NCBI GenBank assembly: GCA_903882745.1
Contig: CAIRYG010000003.1
Span: forward strand, 248,001 to 312,000
DNA: 64,000 nt
Origin: an uncultured Gemmatimonadota bacterium
Lineage (GTDB): Bacteria; Gemmatimonadota; Gemmatimonadetes; Gemmatimonadales; Gemmatimonadaceae
Direction: 5' to 3'
Shown piece after piece: positions 9,489-12,421 of the stretch. Within the stretch, counting starts at the first letter, position 1. The number at the start of each line of letters is the position of its first letter. The notes under the pieces were generated by a model. The model had not been told where the DNA came from. It saw only the letters and a list, made by a program, of their open reading frames with translations, and made no database searches. Made by a program: the position numbers and the translations under genes.

Positions 9489-9517
9489 TTGACTTATCCA
9501 CATACGACCCGTACTCT
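9489..9517 (+). promoter_or_regulatory. Predicted dnaA promoter overlapping a DnaA box
   Basis: TTGACT (9489-9494) and TACTCT (9512-9517) are spaced by exactly 17 bases, the best sigma-70-like pair seen upstream of dnaA. The spacer is largely occupied by a perfect DnaA box. That geometry would let DnaA-ATP block RNA polymerase, the known mode of dnaA autoregulation in several bacteria. Transcription would begin near 9524, leaving a leader of about 150 bases before the dnaA start. Confidence 0.5.
9494..9502 (+). promoter_or_regulatory. DnaA box (perfect consensus)
   Basis: TTATCCACA is an exact match to the high-affinity 9-mer bound by DnaA domain IV. It is the only perfect copy I noticed in the 331-base gap between rpmH and dnaA (9346-9676). 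That gap also holds the predicted dnaA promoter and an 11-bp tandem array. The gap is a candidate part of a bipartite oriC; the other part would be the dnaA-dnaN gap. Confidence 0.7.
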
Positions 9518-9643: not shown

Positions 9644-9676
9644 TACGCCACCCGCACCACACTCGTGACACCCTCT

Positions 9677-11065
9677 GTGACACTCTCCGCAGCTGAAGCT
9701 TGGGATCGTCTCCTCGATCGCGCAAAGACCGAGCTCCCGGAGCATGTCATTGACACGTGGCTCACGCCGCTCGCGCCGGAGAGCTTCGACGGCGAGGCGC
9801 TGATCCTGACCGCACCGGACCAGTGGTCGGTGGAGTGGAACGAGAGCAAGCATCTGGCCCTCCTGGAGGGCTATGCGCCGGCCTGCATCGGGCACCCGGT
9901 GAAGGTGGTCTTCAGGGTCCAAGCGGAACGTCTCAAAAGGTCGCAAATGGACCTTTTCATGCCGCAAAAGAGCGCCACCATGGCGCCACAACAGCGAGAC
10001 AATAGCGTCGTTTTAAGTACTTTGAACGATCGCTACCTCTTCGACTCGTACGTCATCGGACGGTCCAACGAACTCGCAGCAGCCGCCGCGTCCGCAGTCG
10101 CTGCAGCACCCGGAAAGACCTACAACCCGCTCTTCATCTACGGCGCCACGGGACTCGGCAAAACGCACCTCATGCAGGCCATCGCACACGATATCCTGGC
10201 CCGCACCCCAAACTGCCGCGTCATGTACATCAGCACCGAGCAGTTCACCAACGACGTCGTCACCTCGATCACAAAACGGACCATGCACGATTTCCGTCGT
10301 CGCTACCGCGAAACGGATCTCCTGCTGGTCGACGACGTGCACTTCCTCGGCGGCAAAGAAGCAACCCAAGAAGAGTTCTTCCATACCTTCAACGCCATCT
10401 ATGAAGCGGGACGGCAGATCGTGCTCACCAGCGATCGCCCCCCCTCAGAGATCCCCAAACTCGAAGCGCGACTCGTCAGTCGCTTCGAATGGGGGATGGT
10501 CGCCGACATTGCGCCACCTGACCTCGAGCATCGCATCGCCATCCTGCGCCAAAAAGCGCAGGCCGATCATCTCGAACACACGATCCCCGATGACGTTCTC
10601 CACTTCATCGCCGATCATGTTCAGGCCAATGTTCGAGAGCTTGAAGGCTCCATCATCAAGCTCCTGGCCTACGCCTCGCTCAAACATCGCGTGGTCACGG
10701 TCGACCTGGCCCGTGAAGCACTTCGGGACAAGCTGAAATCGAATGATGCTGCTCCGCCGCGGTCCTCTCGCCATGATAGAATGCGGACCGTGCAGCAGCG
10801 GGTCGCCGGCGAATGGGGGGTGACGGTCGACGGTCTGCAGTCCAAGACGCGCACCAAGATCCTCACGACCCCGCGACAAGTGGCGATGTACTTGGCGCGC
10901 GAGATTCTCGGGCTCCAGCTCGTGGAAATCGGGCAGGCGTTTGGGGGTCGCGACCACTCAACCGTGATCCATAGCTTGGAGCGTGTCGCAGAAATGATGA
11001 AGGAAGATGGGGAGTTCCGGAGCCGTGTGGAAAAGGTGAGGGAAACTCTGCGTCATGAACAATGA
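9677..11065 (+). CDS. dnaA: Chromosomal replication initiator protein DnaA
   Basis: A 462-residue initiator ATPase. Domain I begins EAWDRLLDRAKTELPEHVID, the AAA+ domain has Walker A GATGLGKTH (about residue 156) and Walker B LLVDDVHF (about 215). Domain IV has the DnaA-box-binding helix signature GGRDHSTVIHS (about 423). GTG 9677 is preferred because domain I begins immediately after it; GTG 9665 is four codons earlier and equally possible. The open frame reaches back to 9383 only because the tandem repeat lacks stops. dnaN follows after 237 bases. Confidence 0.97.
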   Translation: MTLSAAEAWDRLLDRAKTELPEHVIDTWLTPLAPESFDGEALILTAPDQWSVEWNESKHLALLEGYAPACIGHPVKVVFRVQAERLKRSQMDLFMPQKSATMAPQQRDNSVVLSTLNDRYLFDSYVIGRSNELAAAAASAVAAAPGKTYNPLFIYGATGLGKTHLMQAIAHDILARTPNCRVMYISTEQFTNDVVTSITKRTMHDFRRRYRETDLLLVDDVHFLGGKEATQEEFFHTFNAIYEAGRQIVLTSDRPPSEIPKLEARLVSRFEWGMVADIAPPDLEHRIAILRQKAQADHLEHTIPDDVLHFIADHVQANVRELEGSIIKLLAYASLKHRVVTVDLAREALRDKLKSNDAAPPRSSRHDRMRTVQQRVAGEWGVTVDGLQSKTRTKILTTPRQVAMYLAREILGLQLVEIGQAFGGRDHSTVIHSLERVAEMMKEDGEFRSRVEKVRETLRHEQ

Positions 11066-11302
11066 TCAACATCCTGTCCCCATTTCCTGGTGGGGTTTTC
11101 ACGTAACCCACGGGCGTCCCCACGTTTCACACAGTGGTTCCACATCAGGTGAAGCATCAGAAGTGCAAGTCAGATAACGACTTTCCTTGCTTTTCAACTT
11201 TCCACGCCTTACTACTACTACTGCGAATTAGATATCTAATTCATGTAGATACTAGTCCGGGCGCGGGATCCACATTCTCCTTATCCAGGGGACAGGTCGG
11301 GA
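11066..11302 (+). other. dnaA-dnaN intergenic region, candidate oriC unwinding site
   Basis: This gap is AT-richer than its surroundings. In order it holds a degenerate DnaA box CTTTCCACG (11198-11206), a two-base GC step, four ACT triplets (11211-11222; TAG repeats on the other strand), and a perfect 18-bp palindrome GAATTAGATATCTAATTC (11225-11242). Further weak boxes are GGATCCACA (11266-11274) and TTATCCAGG (11281-11289). Box, short GC step, DnaA-trio repeats, then AT-rich DNA is the order described for the Bacillus subtilis basal unwinding system. No gene lies here. Confidence 0.55.
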
Positions 11303-12421
11303 ATGCGATTTACTATCTCGCGTGAGAAGTTGCAGGAAGGGCTCGCCGCGGTCACACCGGCAGTCCCATCCAAGACGACGTTGCCGGTGCTCGCGAACCT
11401 TCTCGTGGAGACCACCGAGAAGGGGATTCGAATCTCCGGCACCGATCTCGATATCGCCGTCAGCACGGAAGTCACCGCTGATGTCGAAGCGCCAGGCGCC
11501 ATCACGATTCCTGCACGGAAGCTTGCAGAGATCGCGCGTGAGCTGCCGCCGGCATCGGTCAAGATTACGGCCGCCGGCGATCAGCGCATCACCCTGGAAT
11601 GTGGTCGCTCAAAGTTCAAACTCCTCGGCTTGCCCAAGAGTGAGTTTCCGAGCTTTCCGGCGGTTGCCTTTGAGAAAGCGCTTCGCATCCCCTCGGGTGA
11701 TCTGCAGCGTCTGATCTCCCACACCTCGTTTGCTGTGAGCAACGAGGAGAGCCGTCCGATTTTGAACGGGGTGCTCTGGGAAGTCCGCGCCGAATACATG
11801 CGCATGGTTGCCACGAACGGCCATCGCCTTGCCAAGATGGAGGTGCCGGTAGGCGCCAAGGCTGCCAAAGCCGCTCAGGGCGACCTTATCATCCCGCCCA
11901 AGGCCTTGGACCAGATTCACCGCCTTTTCCCCGCAGAAGAGGAGCTAGAGGTCGCGCAGGGGGATAACCACCTGGGCTTCCGCTCGCCGTTCACCTCGGT
12001 GTTCACCCGCCTGATCGAAGGGCCGTATCCGCCATACGATCAGGTGATCCCGAAGGACAACGACAAGGTCGCCACGATCGACAAGGCCGCGTTCGCCAGC
12101 GCGCTGAAGCGCATGCTGATTGTCGCCTCCGACCAGACCCACCGGATCCGCCTCTCGTTCAACTCGGGCATGCTCAAGTTCTCGGTCAGCACGCCGGATC
12201 TTGGCGATGCACAGGATGAGCTGCCGGTGCGCTACAACGGCGATCCGCTCGACATTGGATTCAACGGCACCTACTTGCTCGATATCCTGCGCTACATGCC
12301 CACCGACGAGATCCGCCTGACATTCAAGGCGCCGGATCGTGCGGCTACGATCGAACCAGAGGGTTGGACCGATCCCGCGAAGTATCTCTGCCTCCTGATG
12401 CCGCTGCGCTTGGTCGACTAA
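11303..12421 (+). CDS. dnaN: DNA polymerase III sliding clamp (beta subunit)
   Basis: A 372-residue beta clamp that tethers replicative polymerase to DNA. It opens MRFTISREKLQEGLAAVTPA and has the three-domain repeat. The inter-domain PILNGVLWEV (domain 2) and the C-terminal CLLMPLRLVD match the family, the latter being the usual clamp ending (MPMRL-like). Length is normal. It follows dnaA across the candidate origin gap and is followed by a convergent lipoprotein gene after 55 bases with no clear terminator. Confidence 0.98.
   Translation: MRFTISREKLQEGLAAVTPAVPSKTTLPVLANLLVETTEKGIRISGTDLDIAVSTEVTADVEAPGAITIPARKLAEIARELPPASVKITAAGDQRITLECGRSKFKLLGLPKSEFPSFPAVAFEKALRIPSGDLQRLISHTSFAVSNEESRPILNGVLWEVRAEYMRMVATNGHRLAKMEVPVGAKAAKAAQGDLIIPPKALDQIHRLFPAEEELEVAQGDNHLGFRSPFTSVFTRLIEGPYPPYDQVIPKDNDKVATIDKAAFASALKRMLIVASDQTHRIRLSFNSGMLKFSVSTPDLGDAQDELPVRYNGDPLDIGFNGTYLLDILRYMPTDEIRLTFKAPDRAATIEPEGWTDPAKYLCLLMPLRLVD

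Follow-up and report, generated by a model that had tools for sequence, protein, structure and literature searches.

The gap between dnaA and dnaN in this uncultured bacterium holds, one after the other, a weak DnaA box, a GC step, a run of short repeats and a palindrome, which raises the question of whether these elements form a replication origin and whether the palindrome is one of its working parts. The stretch that we analysed, hereafter the window, comprises 64,000 nucleotides (G000:C3:248001-312000); the genome to which it belongs amounts to 3.06 Mb and is divided over 14 contigs. Its nearest relatives with a name are metagenome assemblies from lakes and fens that carry the label Gemmatimonadetes or Gemmatimonadaceae. 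A literature search for a Gemmatimonas oriC, or for a Gemmatimonadota replication origin with DnaA, returned no paper with a matching title.

Layout and conservation of the box-trio module

The gap is 237 bp long (11066-11302), and direct reading of the sequence found the box, the GC step, the four ACT repeats, the 18-bp palindrome and the two weak far boxes at the very bases where the original prediction had placed them. The features of the region are, in window coordinates:

9494-9502, forward strand: perfect DnaA box TTATCCACA in the rpmH-dnaA gap, a second box region, with which the origin is probably two-part
9665-11065, forward strand: dnaA, presumably with a GTG start
11026-11034, reverse strand: DnaA box TTTTCCACA with 1 mismatch, inside the 3' end of dnaA
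11191-11199, forward strand: weak upstream box TTTTCAACT, the partner in a tandem pair
11198-11206, forward strand: proximal DnaA box CTTTCCACG
11207-11208: CC spacer leading from the box to the trios
11209-11223, reverse strand: five DnaA-trios, bottom strand 3'-AAT GAT GAT GAT GAC-5'
11210-11254: least stable duplex segment, presumed melting core
11225-11242: 18-bp perfect palindrome GAATTAGATATCTAATTC, clade-specific
11266-11274, forward strand: far-side DnaA-box-like site GGATCCACA, oriented as the proximal box
11281-11289, forward strand: second far-side box-like site TTATCCAGG
11303-12421, forward strand: dnaN

The top strand reads TTA-CTA-CTA-CTA-CTG from 11209 to 11223, with ACTx4 within it (11211-11222). 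Between 9580 and 9660, directly upstream of the dnaA start, there are several copies of the 11-bp repeat GCACAGCACTC, because of which the exact start is ambiguous. An exact box lies 1.6-1.9 kb upstream of dnaN in 7 of the 14 relatives examined.

In the model of the Bacillus basal unwinding system (BUS), DnaA bound to its boxes extends onto the trios and opens the duplex (PMC8287927, PMC6669920). The search rules in the available text of PMC8287927 require that three or more NAN trios lie no further than 16 bp from a box, and the program setting given there admits a best box with up to 2 mismatches to TTATCCACA, species-specific motifs being allowed. In the window, 2 bp separate CTTTCCACG from the first of five consecutive trios with a middle A; this box has 3 mismatches to TTATCCACA, and its counterpart CTTTCCACA in the nearest relative, G014, has 2. 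The pattern TCCACR-N2-8-CTACTACTAC, which describes box, spacer and trios, was observed once in the whole genome, a control pattern giving 0 matches, and the 45-mer starting at 11210 has the lowest stability of any in the gap and the second lowest in the 64-kb window.

The distribution of the module was followed across the class by requiring a box and then four good trio steps (score at least 11.5). All 15 genomes of the genus carry it, as do 35 of the 38 in the rest of the family, 21 of the 23 in the rest of the order and 39 of the 52 from other orders of the class, and none of the 4 from the rest of the phylum. The upstream tandem box was observed in 13/15, 28/38, 13/23, 36/52 and 2/4 genomes of the same groups, respectively, and in 4.9% of shuffles. 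In an alignment of the 15 genus genomes the trio letters TACTACTNCTACT are invariant and the core is variable. A first series of 70 loci from the order (68 in the downstream test) gave 60 that beat 95% of their shuffled gaps and 44 at p<=0.005, values which, like all P values in this work, are uncorrected for the several scoring schemes applied to the same gaps, with thresholds and box and trio weights set by hand. The grouped tests used 132 loci with G handles, from which L080-L159 (mostly duplicates) and L079 (the same genome as L069) are excluded; 131 of them entered the dyad test, 132 the trio-array test and 131 the inverted-module test. The dnaA gene was not found for 2 of 40 loci (L257 and L265) and for 3 of 105 (L090, L117 and L127).

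One genus of another order (g61; L161, L240, L243, L251 and L261) has TATGATGACGA in place of CTACTACTA after the box, and TTACTAATTC or a similar sequence further into its core. The box-proximal sequence is possibly a variant trio code; anchoring fails for some genomes of this genus and its trios differ, and they were counted as misses.

The cumulative GC3 skew reaches its minimum, at a depth of -2235, precisely where dnaN ends (contig C3, 332 kb, 227 ORFs), which puts the module within the chromosome origin, and the relative G132, a single contig sampled as 20 x 20 kb, agrees, with its minimum between 3.48 and 3.68 Mb and dnaN at 3.686 Mb. The raw GC skew of the window gives a noisy curve with its running minimum near 40 kb, not 11 kb. 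The Bacillus-like unwinding that had been proposed for this gap thus finds good support in its conservation, strand and spacing, in the instability of the duplex and in the skew, and an origin here was refuted neither by the GC3 skew nor by the comparison of relatives, in which the trios are kept far beyond the genus. Judged from sequence, the dnaA-dnaN gap is very probably (about 0.85) the unwinding half of oriC and would work like a basal unwinding system.

Far-side boxes and facing modules in relatives

A second DnaA-box-like site, whose offset from the first CTA trio is constant, was found downstream of the core. In the family it has the orientation of the proximal box (7 of the 31 genera at offsets 45-54 and 12 of the 31 at 55-64; inverted, 0 and 3), and within the genus a same-orientation far box reaches p<=0.05 in 10 of the 15 genomes. 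The two weak boxes that had been noticed on the far side are therefore real, a same-orientation box at that distance being conserved in the family. In the other orders the far box is inverted, with a score of at least 9 at offsets 45-54 in 15 of the 24 genera (0 of the 24 in the same orientation) and p<=0.05 in 26 of the 52 loci.

Behind the core, the family, the rest of the order and the other orders all show an excess of inverted trio arrays (Fisher over genera 2.8e-4, 1.7e-4 and 2.3e-3, respectively); reversed and complemented controls were not enriched, the same-direction signal was weak (family 0.017), and the genus itself has no inverted trios (0.55). A full inverted module, defined as a box, a spacer and three trios facing back, occurs at p<=0.05 in 11 of the 24 other-order genera (Fisher 1.5e-10), against 0 of the 24 in the same orientation (Fisher 1), and this result is strong enough to survive exploratory testing. 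The same module is not enriched in the family (0.15), in the rest of the order (0.76) or in the genus (1).

A mirror module in the window itself was among the candidates tested, and it was rejected on the two genus values, for the module and for the inverted trios.

Two unwinding modules therefore appear to face each other across one core in the other orders. In the family the far box is turned the other way and only traces of inverted trios are left. We tentatively suggest, at clearly less than even odds, that Gemmatimonadota origins are two-sided: two box-trio modules would face each other across an AT-rich core with trios on each strand, each DnaA filament would direct one helicase, and initiation would be bidirectional by design. 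The far half would have been rebuilt in the family of the window, its box turned and its trios decayed, and the palindrome would be the leftover symmetric centre. Facing box-trio modules across one core are not described in the parts of the DnaA-trio literature that our search reached, most subscription journals and preprints lying outside it.

The palindrome and other candidate sites

Inverted-repeat structure around the trios was measured by folding and by arm exchange, after L029, L072 and one short row were dropped to leave 67 loci. The 58 nt from the trio start fold with a mean z of -0.78 over the 67 loci, 14 of which reach p<=0.05, and arms pair better with their own partner than with that of another genus (mean z -0.55 over 48 groups, Wilcoxon p=0.015). 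These signals indicate weak intrinsic complementarity in some lineages and no conserved palindromic element.

Such complementarity might have arisen without selection, through mutation templated by hairpins (quasi-palindrome correction) at a place where the DNA is frequently single-stranded. In L020, L031 and L046 the inverted partner arm repeats the trio array's own irregularities almost perfectly, and this mirroring of oddities within single lineages, with no conserved register, is what such a process could produce. It leaves unexplained, however, the inverted DnaA boxes at constant offset in 15 of the 24 other-order genera, which lie outside the hairpin arms, and we regard templated mutation as a rather unlikely account of the signal.

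The palindrome of the window had been put forward as an extra element next to the trios, and a function as the operator of a dimeric regulator, or as a cruciform that holds the origin open, would agree with several of its properties. GAATTAGATATCTAATTC is the longest perfect palindrome in the 64-kb window, its dyad stands out against dinucleotide shuffles of the 40-nt surroundings (p=0.005), and the folding of its own strand is slightly stronger than that of shuffles (z=-2.0, p=0.045); the better pairing of own than of swapped arms points the same way. The core dyad is significant in 4 of the 15 genus genomes (the window, G014 and G010 at 0.005 each, G015 at 0.020) and in 6 of the 38 from the rest of the family (Fisher over genera 0.0072). 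It is, however, not significant in the other 11 genus genomes, and it is not enriched in the rest of the order (2/23, Fisher 0.6) or in other orders (4/51, 0.21), so that a palindrome conserved at the level of order or class was rejected. Among six close species no pair of the window dyad is altered on both sides, and 2 of its 9 pairs are broken in most distinct rows. A search of the genome allowing up to 3 mismatches found no second copy, although further copies are often expected for the operator of a regulator, and a genome-wide regulator site was rejected on this uniqueness. A functional palindrome is accordingly a decidedly improbable reading. The check on conservation counts against this half of the prediction, the palindrome being clade-specific and without compensatory pair changes, and from its sequence distribution it looks local rather than essential.

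A comparison of GAATTAGATATCTAATTC with GGAATTGATATTCAATTCC was also tried as a case of compensatory change and rejected; the dyad of the sister sequence is out of step by half a base pair, and in none of the pairs are both sides changed.

Outside the window, an AT-rich region upstream of tilS (C11:187530-188090; L032:3530-4090) contains three perfect DnaA boxes together with near-perfect ones, and it could be a DnaA-titration site, a regulatory site or a rival origin. Were it the real oriC, the dnaA-dnaN gap would be only a DnaA-regulated promoter region. The cluster holds 3 of the 6 perfect TTATCCACA boxes of the genome (C11:187628, 188026 and 188073) and is the least GC-rich 200-bp window in the 120 kb of C11 examined, the gene-strand pattern and the GC3 skew shift at it, and 9 of 17 relatives likewise have near-perfect boxes in an AT-rich upstream region. 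Its cumulative skew dip is nevertheless shallow (-312 vs -2235 at dnaN), no trio array was noticed by eye in the cluster sequence, the exact-box sites of 14 relatives include no cluster of three perfect boxes, and the dnaA-dnaN module is near-universal in the order, all of which makes an origin on C11 very unlikely.

Two further gaps, at C10:231724-231776 (L034:2224-2276) and C10:203372-203452 (L033:2372-2452), have TTTTCCACA and TTATCCACA facing each other across AT-rich DNA; from the translations we take them to lie next to recA and near a dprA-like gene.

That the gap is a mere dnaN promoter or dnaA terminator with a chance simple repeat is scarcely credible and was rejected, since simple scans found neither a sigma-70-like promoter nor a terminator-like site in it and, although it lies directly upstream of dnaN, the repeat beside the box is conserved across the order.

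Comparison with known origins and proposed mechanism

The preferred reading, an oriC unwinding region in the dnaA-dnaN gap, can be set beside origins already described. In E. coli oriC both arrays of DnaA boxes lie on one side of the melting element, unlike the Gemmatimonadota relatives, in which opposed arrays flank it. The likeness to E. coli is in its two opposed DnaA box arrays, oppositely oriented sites being tied there to the loading of two helicases (PMC10316083, PMC13220808). The BUS of Bacillus subtilis oriC (boxes 6/7, a GC-rich spacer and DnaA-trios), as far as it is described in the available text of PMC6669920 and PMC8287927, shares with the window the dnaA-dnaN location, the tandem boxes, the short GC spacer, the trios opposite the box-reading strand, the AT-rich core and a second box region upstream of dnaA. 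The window differs from it in its weaker boxes, its far-side box at a fixed distance, its palindromic core and DciA in place of DnaD-type loading. Helicobacter pylori oriC2 is alike in its trio array, which includes 3'-GAC-5', and in belonging to a two-part origin, whereas the portion of that report available to us describes no far-side box or palindrome (PMC8235120). Thermotoga maritima oriC has similar TAG-type single-strand repeats and variable box orientation, but its own inverted box lies within the box cluster and not across the melting core (PMC10316083). The window itself appears to be an ordinary box-trio origin of known plan, and the surprising part would be the two-sided form in its relatives.

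For the window we infer DnaA binding, melting and helicase loading as follows. DnaA would bind the tandem boxes at 11191-11206 and feed an oligomer onto the bottom-strand trios, with the perfect box upstream of dnaA probably supplying extra DnaA; stretching of the trio strand would open the AT-rich core (~11209-11254), where the helicase would be loaded. The palindrome, which is particular to a few species, would serve mainly to give this core a centre that is symmetric and melts easily, and the far-side box would be a second DnaA anchor at a fixed distance, or a loop anchor. With the inverted module of the other orders, the second strand would have a separate filament. The distal box of B. 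subtilis functions whichever way it points (PMC6669920), and in T. maritima inverted boxes still permit head-to-tail contacts (PMC10316083), two observations that could explain why the far box is able to flip between families.

For Bacillus the current view is that DnaD acts on the strand that does not carry the trios (PMC10201434). DciA (PF05258) was observed in the genome (C4:11753), and a search of the same genome for DnaD/DnaB_2 (PF07261) gave no match, this domain being found in 2 of 14 controls; loading is therefore probably DciA-assisted, with DciA as the likely helicase-loading operator.

How two helicases are loaded in opposite directions at one origin is stated to be an open question (PMC10721633). 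The window contributes an origin from a genus that was encountered here solely in the form of environmental assemblies, and a phylum that has DciA, and in whose sister orders box-trio modules appear to face each other, would offer a sequence-level hypothesis for symmetric loading.
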